64,000 bases of DNA from Deltaproteobacteria bacterium (GTDB lineage: Bacteria > Myxococcota > Myxococcia > Myxococcales > SZAS-1). The translations under genes and the position numbers were made by a program. The stretch is from NCBI GenBank assembly GCA_018266075.1, contig JAFEBB010000008.1, positions 1-64,000 of the forward strand, in the 5' to 3' direction. How positions within the stretch are numbered: the stretch's first letter is position 1; every line of letters begins with the position of its first letter. The notes beneath the pieces were generated by a model that made no database searches, was not told the DNA's origin, and was given only the letters and a program-made list of their open reading frames with translations. Positions 17,136-48,119 of this stretch are shown here, in pieces.

Positions 17136-17225
<90 letters not shown>

Positions 17226-17350
17226 TTTCGCTTGCCGTCGTCGGGCGGCGAAGGCGGTCCAAAGCTCTTGATCCCGCATGCGGGGTGCATTAGGTTGCGC
17301 GGGCTTTTGCGCCGGGAAAGTCCCGTCGCCCGACAATTGAATAGTGATCT

Positions 17351-17443
17351 GGAGAGGTGGCCGAGAGGCTGAAGGCGCTGGTTTGCTAAACCGGTATACG
17401 CCCAAAAGGTGTATCGAGGGTTCGAATCCCTCCCTCTCCGCCA
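17351..17443 (+). tRNA. tRNA-Ser, anticodon GCU
   Basis: The acceptor GGAGAGG pairs with CCTCTCC, ending GCCA. The anticodon arm TGGTTTGCTAAACCG has anticodon GCT, reading AGC/AGU. It has the long serine variable arm and the T-loop TTCGAAT. Confidence 0.97.
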
Positions 17444-17452
17444 AACTGGTCT

Positions 17453-17529
17453 GGACCCTTAGCTCAGCTGGATAGAGCGTCGGACTACGAATCCGAAGGC
17501 CGCAGGTTCGACTCCTGCAGGGTCCGCCA
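17453..17529 (+). tRNA. tRNA-Arg, anticodon ACG
   Basis: A 77-nt tRNA: acceptor GGACCCT with AGGGTCC and GCCA; anticodon arm CGGACTACGAATCCG with anticodon ACG. In bacteria A34 of this tRNA is the substrate of TadA, whose gene starts only 41 nt downstream. Confidence 0.97.
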
Positions 17530-17569
17530 ATTTCTCCCGCGCCACAGGCGCGGGGCCCGTAGGTGCAGC

Positions 17570-18070
17570 GTGCTCGCCGAAGACATCGCCTTCATGGACG
17601 AAGCCTTGCGCGAGGCGCAGGCCGCGGCCGCCGAGGGCGAGGTCCCGGTGGGCGCGGTGGTGGTGCACCAGGGGCGGGTGATCGCCCGGGGCCGCAACCG
17701 CAAGGAGCAGCTCCCCGATCCCACCGCCCACGCGGAGCTCCTCGCCGTGCGCGAGGCCGCGAAGGTGCTGGGCGCCTGGCGGCTCTCGGGGGCCACGCTC
17801 TACGTGACCCTGGAGCCCTGCGCGATGTGCGCGGGGGCCATCGTGCAGGCCCGGGTGGCGCGGGTGGTGTTCGGCTGCCGCGACCCCAAGGCGGGCGCCA
17901 CCGGCAGCCTGATGAACCTGGTGCAGGACGCCCGGCTCAACCACCGCGTGGAGCTTTGCGAGGGGGTGCAGGGCGAGCAGGCGAGCAGGGTGTTGAAGGA
18001 GTTCTTCCGCGCCAAGCGCGGGAGGGTAGATGGGTCTGGAGAGTTGGCCGAGCTGGTCGAAGGCGCCTGA
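17570..18070 (+). CDS. tadA: tRNA-specific adenosine deaminase
   Basis: This 166-aa zinc enzyme deaminates A34 of tRNA-Arg(ACG) to inosine. It shows the cytidine/deoxycytidylate deaminase motifs: HAE (TAHAELLAV, with the catalytic Glu) and PCAMC (LEPCAMCAGAI). The start codon is GTG at 17570. The gene sits directly after tRNA-Arg(ACG), the substrate. The normal C-terminus would end near FFRAKRG; here the frame runs on into the next tRNA-Ser gene (18038..18128) and stops at a TGA inside it, giving the extra RVDGSGELAELVEGA tail. So protein-coding and tRNA sequence overlap by 33 bp, which is unusual but seems real in this sequence. Confidence 0.95.
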   Translation: MLAEDIAFMDEALREAQAAAAEGEVPVGAVVVHQGRVIARGRNRKEQLPDPTAHAELLAVREAAKVLGAWRLSGATLYVTLEPCAMCAGAIVQARVARVVFGCRDPKAGATGSLMNLVQDARLNHRVELCEGVQGEQASRVLKEFFRAKRGRVDGSGELAELVEGA

Positions 18071-18128
18071 CTCGAAATCAGGTATACCGGCAACGGTATC
18101 GAAGGTTCGAATCCTTCACTCTCCGCCA
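18038..18128 (+). tRNA. tRNA-Ser, anticodon CGA
   Basis: The acceptor GGAGAGT pairs with ACTCTCC; the anticodon arm CCTGACTCGAAATCAGG has anticodon CGA and reads UCG. Long variable arm and GCCA end are present. Its first 33 nt overlap the end of tadA. Confidence 0.97.
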
Positions 18129-18136
18129 ACACATAG

Positions 18137-18168
18137 AGCCCGCGGGGTGCAAACGCCCCGCGGGCTCG
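18137..18168 (+). other. Strong GC hairpin between two tRNA-Ser genes
   Basis: GAGCCCGCGGGG and its exact complement CCCCGCGGGCTC enclose an 8-nt loop. There is no T-run after it. It may be a processing or pausing element in the tRNA transcript. Confidence 0.6.
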
Positions 18169-18174
18169 CCATCT

Positions 18175-18264
18175 GGAGAGGTGGCCGAGCGGTTGAAGGC
18201 GCACGCTTGGAAAGCGTGTATACGGGAAACCGTATCGAGGGTTCGAATCCCTCCCTCTCCGCCA
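18175..18264 (+). tRNA. tRNA-Ser, anticodon GGA
   Basis: The acceptor GGAGAGG pairs with CCTCTCC and GCCA; the anticodon arm CACGCTTGGAAAGCGTG has anticodon GGA and reads UCC/UCU. Long variable arm is present. Together with UGA, GCU and CGA it makes a four-isoacceptor serine cluster. Confidence 0.97.
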
Positions 18265-18319
18265 GTTGGCGCTGAAGAAGGAACGCAGGGCCGCGGTTAG
18301 AATACGCGGTGAAGGATGT

Positions 18320-18419
<100 letters not shown>

Positions 18420-18423
18420 CCAT

Positions 18424-18461: not shown

Positions 18462-18499
18462 CGGGCGGGCACTGGACCACCGAGAAGGTCTGGAGAGAC

Positions 18500-18611
18500 G
18501 GCGAGCGTTGGAGCGGTCGGGCGTCGGGAGGCCGCGGAGACTTCCTGCAAACGGCGAGCGTTGGAGCGTAGGAGCGGCGCACGCTTCCACTCCAACGCTC
18601 TAATGCTCGCC
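18500..18611. repeat. Octanucleotide repeat cluster (TTGGAGCG family), direct and inverted
   Basis: GGCGAGCG-TTGGAGCG occurs at 18500..18515 and again at 18553..18568, each followed by a further degenerate octamer (GTCGGGCG, TAGGAGCG). An inverted version (reverse complement GGCGAGCA-TTAGAGCG-TTGGAGTG) covers 18588..18611, so the second and third copies can pair into a long hairpin. The stretch 18462-18680 holds no gene that I can see; this repeat cluster is its main content. Confidence 0.6.
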
Positions 18612-18680
18612 TTTCGTTGGAGGTCGCCTCGGTTTCGGCTCACCTCTGACTGACCCTGGAGATCGACGTCGCGCAAAACG

Positions 18681-18713
18681 AAAGCGCCGGCTCCCTTTCG
18701 GGAGGCCGGCGCT
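18681..18713 (-). terminator. GC-rich hairpin downstream of the zincin gene
   Basis: GCGCCGGC and GCCGGCGC arms enclose a loop with its own CTCCC/GGGAG pair. It lies 26 nt beyond the metalloprotease stop on the minus strand and so probably ends that transcript. On the minus strand the 3' flank is GTTTTGCG, a short T-run after the stem. Confidence 0.65.
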
Positions 18714-18738
18714 CGCGCGCTTCAGTCTGCTTCGACGC

Positions 18739-44095: not shown

Positions 44096-44260
44096 ACCGG
44101 CAGGTGCCGTGGCGCGTGAATACAGTCGCAGTTCCCGAGTCTTTCTCTCGTCGCCCGGGCGAAGGGTGTGCGTGCAGGTGGGCGGTTGGGGCGGGTTTGC
44201 AACGGATCCGGGGTCGCGGTGTTGAACCGGATGAGAGGTCGCGGGGAGGAGGTCGTCGTC

Positions 44261-45316
44261 ATGGGCTCGCTGCTCGCAGACACCCAGCCGGTTCGCATGG
44301 ACGCCAACGCTGCTCGGCCCACCTCCGCAGGCGTCGATCTCGCCGCGGGCGAGCTCGTCGACAACCGCTACCGCATCCTCGAGCGCCTGGGGCAGGGCGG
44401 CATGGGCGCGGTGTTTCGCGCGCACGACGTCGACGCCCAGCGCGACGTGGCCATCAAGATCCTCACCTCCGACAGCGCCTGCGATCCCGAGTTCGTGGCC
44501 CGGTTCCAGCGCGAGGCGCGCACCACCGGCGCGCTCGATCATCCCGCGGTCGTGCCCGTGTACGCGGTGGGCAAGCAGGGCAAGCGGCACTACCTGGTGA
44601 TGGCCCTGCTCGAGGGCGAGACCCTCGAGGAGCGGCTCGGTCGCGGCAAGCTCACCATGTCGGAGACGCTGCAGATCCTCCGGCCCCTGGTCGCCGGGCT
44701 GTCGTACCTGCACAAGCAGAAGCTCGTGCACCGCGACGTGAAGCCCGGAAACGTGATGCTCCGTCGCGACGGCGGCGTGACCATCATGGACTTCGGGCTG
44801 GTGCGCGGGCCGAGGGATCCGTCCATCACCCGCGATGGGTTCGCGGTGGGCACGCCCGGCGCCATGTCGCCGGAGCAGATCCTCGGCGATTCGCCCGTCG
44901 ACGGCCGCGCCGACCAGTACGCGCTCGGCGTGCTCCTCTTCGAGTGCCTCACCGGGCACATGCCGTTCGAGGGGCTTTCCGACGTGGAGCTGCTCCGCAA
45001 GCACCTGGAGCAGCCCATTCCGGATCCGCGGATCTTCGAGCCGGAGATGCCCTCCGCCGTGGCCGACGTGATCCTGCGCGCCATGGCCAAGAAGCCGTAC
45101 GAGCGCTTCCTCGACGTGGAGCAGCTCCTCGCCGAGCTGGAGAAGTCGGCCGCCGGCAACGGCACCCGGCCCACCACGAGCGGCTCGCGCTGGCTGGCCA
45201 AGGTGCTCGGCCTGGGCGTCGCGGGCGCGCTGGCGCTCGCGTTCGGACAGAAGCTCCTCGCGGACAAGCCGGCGGCGCCGATCGTCGTCGCGAGCGCGGA
45301 CGCTTCCCACCGCTGA
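44261..45316 (+). CDS. Hanks-type Ser/Thr protein kinase with C-terminal membrane segment
   Basis: This 351-aa kinase has the glycine loop LGQGGMGAVFRA, Lys in VAIKIL, catalytic loop KLVHRDVKPGNVML, DFGLVRG, and MSPEQ (GTPGAMSPEQ, where most relatives have GYMSPEQ). After the kinase domain a short linker leads to one membrane segment (LAKVLGLGVAGALALAFGQ) near the C-terminus. The kinase domain would face the cytoplasm. The ATG at 44261 has a GGAGGAGG site; an upstream ATG at 44231 would add 10 residues. It precedes the second kinase by about 260 bp containing a structured RNA. Substrates unknown. Confidence 0.92.
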   Translation: MGSLLADTQPVRMDANAARPTSAGVDLAAGELVDNRYRILERLGQGGMGAVFRAHDVDAQRDVAIKILTSDSACDPEFVARFQREARTTGALDHPAVVPVYAVGKQGKRHYLVMALLEGETLEERLGRGKLTMSETLQILRPLVAGLSYLHKQKLVHRDVKPGNVMLRRDGGVTIMDFGLVRGPRDPSITRDGFAVGTPGAMSPEQILGDSPVDGRADQYALGVLLFECLTGHMPFEGLSDVELLRKHLEQPIPDPRIFEPEMPSAVADVILRAMAKKPYERFLDVEQLLAELEKSAAGNGTRPTTSGSRWLAKVLGLGVAGALALAFGQKLLADKPAAPIVVASADASHR

Positions 45317-45369
45317 GCTGCACGATTTCGCTCGCGCTGCGTTGCCACGTTGGCGCACGTCTCCCCACG

Positions 45370-45400
45370 TTGACGAGCGCCCGCGGACGCGGCCGATAAT
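45370..45400 (+). promoter_or_regulatory. Promoter of the structured RNA upstream of the second kinase
   Basis: TTGACG (45370..45375) and GATAAT (45395..45400), 19 nt apart. The next about 7 nt lead to the first predicted RNA hairpin. Good -35 and -10 for this GC-rich genome, with a slightly long spacer. Confidence 0.55.
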
Positions 45401-45404
45401 TGCG

Positions 45405-45543
45405 TTCACGAATCCAGAGCGATGACCTCGCTCAGAGCAAGCTCCGACGTGGCGTCGGGGCGCGCAGAACTGCGCAGCGGCGTGAGCCGCCAGGCGGGTC
45501 GCCGAGGTCTCCAGCCCGACGGGCGTGGAGGCCTTTTTCTTTT
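45405..45543 (+). ncRNA. Candidate structured RNA (sRNA or attenuator leader) with five hairpins
   Basis: Five consecutive perfect or near-perfect hairpins follow a promoter: GAGCG/CGCTC (45417..45433), CCGACG/CGTCGG (45444..45458), GCGCAG/CTGCGC (45462..45475), GCGGC-GTGA-GCCGC with a GNRA tetraloop (45477..45490), and a terminator hairpin (45506..45533) followed by TTTTTCTTTT. The whole is about 137 nt. It lies about 34 nt before the kinase start at 45577, so it may be a regulated leader or an independent small RNA. I do not recognise a known RNA family. Short reading frames inside it look unconvincing. Confidence 0.55.
45506..45543 (+). terminator. Intrinsic terminator in the kinase leader
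   Basis: GGTCTCCA and TGGAGGCC (one G-T pair) enclose a second stem GCCC-GAC-GGGC; the T-run TTTTTCTTTT follows directly. It is the strongest intrinsic terminator in the window and lies only 34 nt before the ATG of the kinase. Confidence 0.85.
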
Positions 45544-45576
45544 CCAGCTCCCGTCGGCAGTGACGACGAGGAGCAC

Positions 45577-47166
45577 ATGGCTCAACCCATCGAGTGGAAC
45601 GACAGCGAGCCGCTGCGCTTGGGCCGCTACGAGATTCTCGAGCGCATTGGCCGGGGCGGCATGGCCGAGGTTTACAAGGCGCGGCTCGCGGGGGCGCTGG
45701 GCGTGGAGAAGCGGGTGGCGGTGAAGCGCATCCTCCCCGAGGCGTTCACGGATCCGCACTTCGTGAAGCTCTTCGTGCGCGAGGCGCGGCTCTCCACGCG
45801 GCTGCAGCACCCGAACCTCATCCAGGTCTTCGAGTTCGCGCAGGAGGAGCGCGAGCTGTTCCTGGCCATGGAGCTCATCGAGGGCTGCGATCTGCGCAAG
45901 GTCCTCAACGCCCAGCGCCAGCTCGGCAAGCCCATGCCCACGGAGATTGCGCTCTGTGTGATCCACGGCGTGCTGCAGGGGCTGGAGTTCGCGCACCGGC
46001 TGACCGACGAGCAGGGCGCGCCGCTGAACGTGGTGCATCGCGACTTGTCGCCGTCGAACGTGCTGCTCTCGTACGCGGGCGCCGTCAAGGTCGCCGACTT
46101 CGGCGTGGCGCACGTGGACGGCCCGGAGAAGAGCGACGCCAATCTCCTCAAGGGGAAGGTCTCGTACATGGCGCCGGAGCAGCTCACCGGCAAGGGCGTG
46201 GACGCGCGCACCGATGTGTTCGCGGCGGCCTGCGTGCTCTACGAGATGCTCGCCGGCGAGCCGGTGTACAGCGGCAAGGTTACGCCCAAGCTGGTGCGGC
46301 AGGTGGCGCGCGGCGAGGTGCCGACGGTGCGGAACGCGATCCCCTACGTGGATCCGGCGCTGGCGGCCGTGATGCAGCGCGCGCTCAGCCCCAAGCCCGC
46401 CGAGCGCACCGCGAGCTGCGAGCGCTTCGACCAGGAGCTGATGGAGCTGGTGAACACGGGTCGGCTGCGCTGCGCACGCGAAGGCGAGCTCGCATTGTAC
46501 CTCGAGGTGCTGGTGCCCAAGCCGGTGCCGAGCGAGGTGGACTCACAGCCGCAGCCGCCGATTGCGCCCACCGTCGCGTCGAAGAAGCCGCCGCCGTCGC
46601 CGAGGCAGGAGGGCGGGAGCGTCATCGAGCTGCGCACCTCGGACGTGGAGCCGCTCTCCATGGCCAAGTCTCCCGAGAGCGTCGCGATGCGAGAGCTGCT
46701 CGCTCCCATCGCCGTGCCGCCCGACGCGTCCCAGTCCACGTCAGCGCCGGAGCCGCTGGTGCCCAAGGCGGTGGTGCTCCGGCTCACGCCCGCGCCGGTC
46801 GTCGACTCGCGATCGCTGAGCGAGCCGCTGCTCCTCGACAAGCCGGTGGTGGAGCTGGTGAAGGAGCCTTCCCTCCCCGATGACGACGATGACGTGCTCG
46901 AGCCCCCGCGACGCTGGCCGCGCGCGCTCGCCGCGTTGTTCGTGGTGGCGGTGATCGGCGCGGGCGCGGTGCAGGCTCAGAAATACCTGCCGCACGCCTG
47001 GACGCCGGGCTTCGTTCCCGGGCCGCCGTTCGAGCCCGCGAAGGTGGCGCTGGTGCTCGACGACTCGAAGCTCAAGGTCGATCTGCCAGTGATCACCCTG
47101 AGCGCGCCCGAGCCGAAGCCCAGGAAGCCGGCGAAGAAGATCGTCCCCTCAACCGGTCACTGGTAG
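45577..47166 (+). CDS. Hanks-type Ser/Thr protein kinase with proline-rich linker and membrane segment
   Basis: This 529-aa kinase has glycine loop IGRGGMAEVYKARL, AVKRILPE, catalytic loop NVVHRDLSPSNVLL, DFGVAHV and MAPEQLTGKG. A long Pro/Ser linker (about residues 310-440) leads to one membrane segment (ALAALFVVAVIGAGAVQA, about 450) and a short extracytoplasmic tail. The start at 45577 follows a GAGGAG site. The leader contains a strong intrinsic terminator, so expression may need readthrough. It converges with the DNA adenine methylase and overlaps it by 10 bp. Targets unknown. Confidence 0.92.
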   Translation: MAQPIEWNDSEPLRLGRYEILERIGRGGMAEVYKARLAGALGVEKRVAVKRILPEAFTDPHFVKLFVREARLSTRLQHPNLIQVFEFAQEERELFLAMELIEGCDLRKVLNAQRQLGKPMPTEIALCVIHGVLQGLEFAHRLTDEQGAPLNVVHRDLSPSNVLLSYAGAVKVADFGVAHVDGPEKSDANLLKGKVSYMAPEQLTGKGVDARTDVFAAACVLYEMLAGEPVYSGKVTPKLVRQVARGEVPTVRNAIPYVDPALAAVMQRALSPKPAERTASCERFDQELMELVNTGRLRCAREGELALYLEVLVPKPVPSEVDSQPQPPIAPTVASKKPPPSPRQEGGSVIELRTSDVEPLSMAKSPESVAMRELLAPIAVPPDASQSTSAPEPLVPKAVVLRLTPAPVVDSRSLSEPLLLDKPVVELVKEPSLPDDDDDVLEPPRRWPRALAALFVVAVIGAGAVQAQKYLPHAWTPGFVPGPPFEPAKVALVLDDSKLKVDLPVITLSAPEPKPRKPAKKIVPSTGHW

Positions 47167-48119
47167 TTGCGGACCACCAGCTCGGCGATCGGGCCGCGCT
47201 TGCTCGCGTCGCGGTTGATGGCGCGGGTGGCGTAGACCTCGCGCACGTCGAAGTCGCGGTAGAGGTCGCGGATGAACTGCGCGCTGGAGTTGGAGAGCAT
47301 CACCTTGCAGCCGCGGCGATCCAGCTCGCGGCACACGTCGCGGAGCTCCTCCTGCTGCTGCGGCCCGAAGCTGCTCGAGGTGTACGCGGTGAAGCTCGAC
47401 GTCGCGGACAGCGGCGCGTACGGCGGATCGAAGTAGACGAAGTCGCCGCGCTCCGCGCGCTCCAGGACGTCCGAGTAGCCCGAGTGGTGCACGTCGACGT
47501 ACGCGAGCGCCGCGCTCACCCGTCGCAGGTTGGCCTCGTCGCAGATGGTGGGGTTGGTGTACTTGCCGAAGGGCACGTTGAACTGGCCCTTGCGGTTCAC
47601 GCGGTGCAGGCCGTTGAAGCAGGTGCGGTTCAGGAAAATGAAGCGCGCCGCGCGCTGCACGTCGGGCAGCTGCTCGGGCTCCTGCGCGCGCACCGCGTAG
47701 TAGTGCTCCTTCTCGTAGACGTGCTCGCCCAGGGCATCCACCAGCGCGTCCACCTTCGTGCGCAGCACGCGGTAGCAGTTCACGAGCTCGGGGTTCAGGT
47801 CCGAGATCACCGCGCGCGCCGGCGCCAGCGCGAAGAACATGGCGCCGCCGCCGATGAAGGGCTCGTGGTAGGTGCCCGTCATCCGCTCGGGCAGCAGCGG
47901 AAAGAGCTGGCTCAGGAGCTGCGTCTTGCCGCCCGCCCACTTGAGGAACGGCTGCGCCGGGGCGTCGAGGGCGCTGGGGAGCCGTGCGGTGCGGGCCGCC
48001 GAGGTTCGCCTGGCGCTGAGCGAACCCTGCTCGTCGGCCTCTTTGGAAAAGAGGTCTCCCTGCGCCCGAAGAGGGCGCGTGCGCGCGTGCTTCGCCAAGG
48101 CTGGGCTCCCGATCGGCAT
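47157..48119 (-). CDS. DNA adenine methylase (D12 class)
   Basis: This 320-aa N6-adenine methyltransferase of the Dam/DpnM class has the SAM motif FLKWAGGKTQLLSQL (about residue 60), the DPPYAPL catalytic motif (motif IV), and RGDFVYFDPPY nearby. There is no adjacent restriction gene, so it is probably an orphan methylase for regulation, mismatch repair or replication control; GATC is the usual target of the class but is not proven. An approximately 55-residue N-terminal extension precedes the core. A perfect dyad GTCGCGAT-AC-ATCGCGAC lies 9 bp upstream of the ATG. It converges with the kinase gene. Confidence 0.9.
   Translation of the reverse strand: MPIGSPALAKHARTRPLRAQGDLFSKEADEQGSLSARRTSAARTARLPSALDAPAQPFLKWAGGKTQLLSQLFPLLPERMTGTYHEPFIGGGAMFFALAPARAVISDLNPELVNCYRVLRTKVDALVDALGEHVYEKEHYYAVRAQEPEQLPDVQRAARFIFLNRTCFNGLHRVNRKGQFNVPFGKYTNPTICDEANLRRVSAALAYVDVHHSGYSDVLERAERGDFVYFDPPYAPLSATSSFTAYTSSSFGPQQQEELRDVCRELDRRGCKVMLSNSSAQFIRDLYRDFDVREVYATRAINRDASKRGPIAELVVRNYQ

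Follow-up and report, generated by a model that had tools for sequence, protein, structure and literature searches.

The locus lies in a 64-kb stretch of DNA (hereafter the window) from a genome of 7.84 Mb in 166 contigs. The source is a deep branch of a myxobacterial order, as judged from the named relatives of its kinases, and looks uncultured. Two Ser/Thr kinase genes stand in tandem on the + strand: an upstream gene at 44168-45316, with a likely start at ATG 44261 and its stop at 45316, and a second gene at 45577-47166 (529 aa, Pkinase), which is the presumed controlled gene. A D12-class adenine DNA methyltransferase gene on the - strand (47157-48119) converges with the second kinase, the two coding sequences overlapping by 10 bases. 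Ser/Thr kinases are very numerous in myxobacteria, and how individual members are switched on is mostly unknown. The interval between the two kinases contains, in order, a pair of promoter boxes, six hairpins, a T-tract, and the ATG at 45577.

The promoter boxes, TTGACG (45370-45375) and GATAAT (45395-45400), had been identified in the first-pass annotation, and both are present, separated by a 19-nt spacer. The pair is unlisted in a consensus promoter scan because that scan allows spacers of 16-18 nt. Placing the start from the -10 box gives a predicted terminated leader RNA of ~137 nt (45407-45543). Its first five hairpins are hairpin 1 (45417-45433), hairpin 2 (45441-45461, 9 pairs), hairpin 3 (45462-45475), hairpin 4 (45477-45490; GCGGC-GUGA-GCCGC), which carries the GUGA (GNRA) tetraloop described previously, and hairpin 5 (45493-45503). 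The sixth belongs to an intrinsic terminator (45504-45543), in which a 14-pair stem with one bulged G (hairpin 45504-45535, ΔG about -23 kcal/mol) is followed by the T-tract TTTTTCTTTT at 45534-45543. This terminator was found by a fold-based scan and is missing from the consensus scan.

The first-pass annotation had thus correctly recognized a hairpin array ending in a strong intrinsic terminator just before the kinase ATG, with some adjustments: it counted five hairpins including the terminator where there are five plus the terminator, and it gave a distance of 34 nt where 33 nt separate the end of the T-tract from ATG 45577. It also missed a further hairpin at 45547-45574, which pairs the Shine-Dalgarno sequence GAGGAG (45568-45573) and could add translational control. 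As a special feature of this locus, Shine-Dalgarno sequestration was rejected, since low Shine-Dalgarno accessibility is common in the GC-rich window.

When folded, the leader is far more stable than its shuffles, with z-scores that depend on the segment: -2.9 for 156 nt, -4.5 for the 194-nt leader, and -5.3 for a 140-nt segment with pairing limited to 36 nt (0/300 shuffles as good). Of 914 segments of 140 nt from the window, 1.8% reach a global z this low and 0.8% a local energy this low; against this background, the folding of the leader alone is only suggestive. That 0.8-1.8% of segments, depending on the measure, fold equally well is also what speaks for chance, that is, for GC-rich intergenic DNA without a functional RNA. 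We consider chance very improbable, given that the T-tract, a rare promoter recurring at a paralogue (see below) and the local-fold z of -5.3 coincide at this one place; with its features combined, the leader is more than chance.

The scan's lowest global z falls at a site overlapping a tRNA-Ser gene (18038-18128), which acts as a positive control. Four tRNA-Ser genes (anticodons tga, gct, cga, and gga) are clustered at 17136-18420 of the window with a tRNA-Arg gene and a small SRP RNA. What may be a repeat element lies at 18490-18615, where GGCGAGCGTTGGAGCG units recur and one copy (CACTCCAACGCT) is partly inverted, and on the - strand at 18675-18720 a T-rich stretch follows a very strong hairpin (GCGCCGGCCTCCCGAAAGGGAGCCGGCGC), making this site resemble an intrinsic terminator.

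GC content by codon position is flat in the leader (0.70/0.65/0.65) versus 0.73/0.44/0.93 in the kinase (0.73-0.74/0.44-0.46/0.93 across the two flanking kinases), and the leader is therefore non-coding. The same flat profile rules out an extended coding start at TTG 45400. A leader peptide was likewise considered and rejected: two frames read through the terminator without a stop, and the third, interrupted by stops, has no evident start. No known ligand-binding motif was seen in the leader.

The promoter motif is rare. TTGAC-N(17-21)-GATAAT occurs at exactly two sites in the genome, and widening the pattern to TTGAC-N(15-22)-KATAAT adds one more, for three genome-wide. Both TTGAC-N20-GATAAT sites sit upstream of paralogous Ser/Thr kinases in sense orientation, and each has the same unusual 19-nt spacer. 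The second site (C57:34349-34379) is upstream of the closest paralogue of the second kinase (49% identical across the full alignment and 59% within the kinase domain), 155 nt from the start of that gene and in the same orientation. The exact-spacing pattern gave 13 matches in 145 related genomes, compared to 11 for a reversed control (146 genomes), a rate of about 0.09 per genome, from which we calculate a probability of ~2 in a million that any given 300 nt of upstream sequence would match by chance on one strand. When the matches in the relatives were checked, one (L103) proved to be near a kinase, but on the opposite strand to that kinase. Scoring of 76 kinase upstream regions placed this pair at 12/12 and 11/12, with the next best at 9/12. 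Because the rare motif recurs with equal spacing upstream of the closest paralogue, the promoter at 45370-45400 is most likely the kinase's own, inherited with the gene pair and driving both kinases. If the promoter belongs to the kinase, the hairpin-terminator block lies inside the kinase 5′ leader.

The paralogue's own leader is 118 nt long, contains no terminator or T-tract, and folds unremarkably (z -0.6); only one of the two copies therefore carries the hairpin block with its terminator. Since the other leader lacks both a terminator and unusual structure, attenuation need not be ancestral to the kinase pair, a point against the attenuator reading developed below.

We found no sigma-70-like -10 box (NANNNT hexamer) in 45440-45576, and the earlier statement that no room remains for another promoter after the terminator holds for boxes of this type. 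Transcripts from 45407 would therefore have to pass the terminator to give kinase mRNA. Of the two options left by the first-pass annotation, a trans-acting small RNA or a cis attenuator, the second is favored by the paralogue's matching promoter and by the absence of any sigma-70-like -10 downstream of the terminator. Based on the leader anatomy and the promoter common to the paralogue, we lean slightly toward reading the hairpin-terminator block as the kinase gene's 5′ leader, acting in cis as a transcription attenuator.

A stand-alone trans-acting small RNA gene, with its own promoter and terminator and situated before the kinase by happenstance, would leave the kinase to be transcribed by leakage or from an unrecognized non-sigma-70 promoter. 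We think this unlikely. The promoter-to-terminator unit is complete and the RNA compact and stable, as such a gene would require, and there is a precedent in Pxr, the developmental small RNA of Myxococcus xanthus (PMC5684412, PMC5568312), which is intergenic; an insert bearing the whole predicted Pxr ends 44 bp before the start codon of Mxan_1079 (PMC5684412), so the closeness of our terminator to the ATG is weak evidence for cis over trans. However, the same rare promoter would also drive the paralogous kinase through a terminator-less leader, tying the promoter to the kinase, and the RNA has almost no single-stranded region for pairing with a target except its 5′ ~10 nt and a 7-nt linker. 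In addition, searches of 60 genomes found no homologues, and the duplex of the leader RNA with the start region of the paralogue mRNA is no better than shuffles.

The terminator might instead serve mainly to stop read-through from the upstream kinase, with non-regulatory hairpins and a second kinase that lives on leak-through. Such insulation would fit an upstream gene (44261-45316) that shares the strand, and between this gene and 45370 the fold-based scan places no terminator. We regard it as improbable, because a strong promoter lies between the upstream kinase and the terminator, so that the kinase's own promoter would be blocked too, and because the five other hairpins would be left unexplained.

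Under the favored attenuator reading, RNA polymerase would start near 45407 from the kinase's own promoter, the leader would fold into its hairpins, and by default most transcription would halt at the terminator near 45543, yielding a compact RNA of ~137 nt. Kinase mRNA would then arise from read-through, either leaky or regulated. Most transcripts probably end before the kinase gene unless the terminator is overridden. The sequence itself shows the promoter motif, the hairpins, the terminator, the non-coding composition and the promoter common to the paralogue; from these elements, we infer the start site, termination, its regulation, and a signal acting on it.

A candidate switch is provided by GACCUC (45424-45429), the predicted antiterminator strand, which is held in hairpin 1 and can pair in nascent RNA with GAGGUC at 45504-45509, the base of the terminator 5′ arm. 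With the growing chain folded to 45510-45524, hairpin 1 is predicted to open and GACCUC to pair with GAGGUC; in nascent RNA to 45516, this pairing has a predicted probability of 0.96 versus 0.04 for hairpin 1. Shuffled upstream sequences sequester the terminator arm as well in 5.7% of cases, 10% have as long a run complementary to it, and the finished terminator fold is 13-20 kcal/mol more stable than the antiterminator alternative. For these reasons, the evidence for a terminator/antiterminator/anti-antiterminator arrangement of the terminator, the GACCUC:GAGGUC helix and hairpin 1 is weak and borderline relative to shuffles. In such an arrangement, hairpin 1 would hide GACCUC, and read-through would be favored by any factor opening or binding hairpin 1 or stabilizing the long-range helix.

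Relatives of the leader were sought in several ways. An Rfam search, suggested in the first-pass annotation, returned no family at gathering score; the best match, ctRNA_p42d, reached 21.1 bits against a cut-off of 50 and came from the terminator hairpin and tail only. BLAST of the leader against its own genome and 59 relatives gave short GC-rich matches only. The best outside match of a single-sequence covariance model across the 60 genomes (23 bits, E 0.0045 for one genome) lies just downstream of a secG-like gene and rests largely on the terminator tail, and the remaining matches look like chance. Neither approach found a homologous leader in these 60 genomes, among which the source genome is the sole member of its family. 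Relatives of the kinase match mostly in the kinase domain, at 36-46%, so an orthologous kinase leader is not alignable. A terminator-like site no more than 300 nt from the start was seen at just one other (L056) of 93 kinase loci.

It would be a long shot to see here an undescribed, lineage-specific attenuator, sensing a protein or ligand, that controls just one copy of a duplicated kinase pair in a deep myxobacterial family (the other having a plain leader) and whose terminated RNA also acts in trans. If the attenuator reading itself is true, with a common promoter but an RNA-level stop ahead of only one sister, the pair would be a clean natural experiment in the divergence of control after kinase duplication.

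RNA-level control by a premature terminator is of a kind already known, and our example appears ordinary in kind, though without detectable relatives. Premature intrinsic terminators in leaders are widespread (survey PMC2965389). Like these attenuators, the kinase gene has what is very probably its own promoter, a structured leader and an intrinsic terminator shortly before the start codon; a candidate helix that would compete with the terminator base is predicted as well. It differs in gene class, being a Ser/Thr kinase, and neither a signal or ligand motif nor a leader peptide or conserved family was identified for it. The ANTAR-controlled leaders of amiE, nasF and eut, for which the criterion is two hexaloops with A1 and G4 (PMC3369936), also have hairpins before an intrinsic terminator, and their antiterminator overlaps the terminator arm, as the candidate antiterminator of the kinase leader would. 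In contrast, the hairpin next to the terminator in the kinase leader does not overlap the terminator, and paired loops with A1 and G4 are absent from this leader, its alternative hexaloops being AGAACU (H3) and CGUGAG (H4).

Pxr, to which a relation had been raised, resembles the kinase leader in being myxobacterial and intergenic, in having several stem-loops, and in having its end only some tens of nt ahead of the following gene. Unlike the kinase leader, it has a sigma-54 promoter, pxrR/nla19 as neighbor, and three stem-loops. The complement of the Pxr probe has at least 12/26 mismatches to the leader and only a control-level match in the whole genome. With no sequence match and no sigma-54-like site in 45301-45580, a relation to Pxr is not supported.

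The nearest known system, by analogy of anatomy, appears to be UpsM of Rhodobacter sphaeroides, a small RNA from the long mraZ 5′ leader with a Rho-independent terminator (PMC5089854). The controlled genes are unrelated (mraZ versus a Ser/Thr kinase), and UpsM differs further in being backed by transcript data and conserved among Rhodobacteraceae. The double role proposed for UpsM, in which premature termination yields a trans-acting 5′-leader small RNA and read-through yields the gene product, would extend to the kinase if the shared order of promoter, multi-hairpin leader, strong terminator and gene carried the same function; with neither a target nor homologues found, we hold this to be rather unlikely. 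In both systems, a multi-hairpin 5′ leader with a strong terminator stands before the gene, and just as the terminated product of UpsM is a discrete RNA, the ~137-nt product of the kinase leader might also act in trans.
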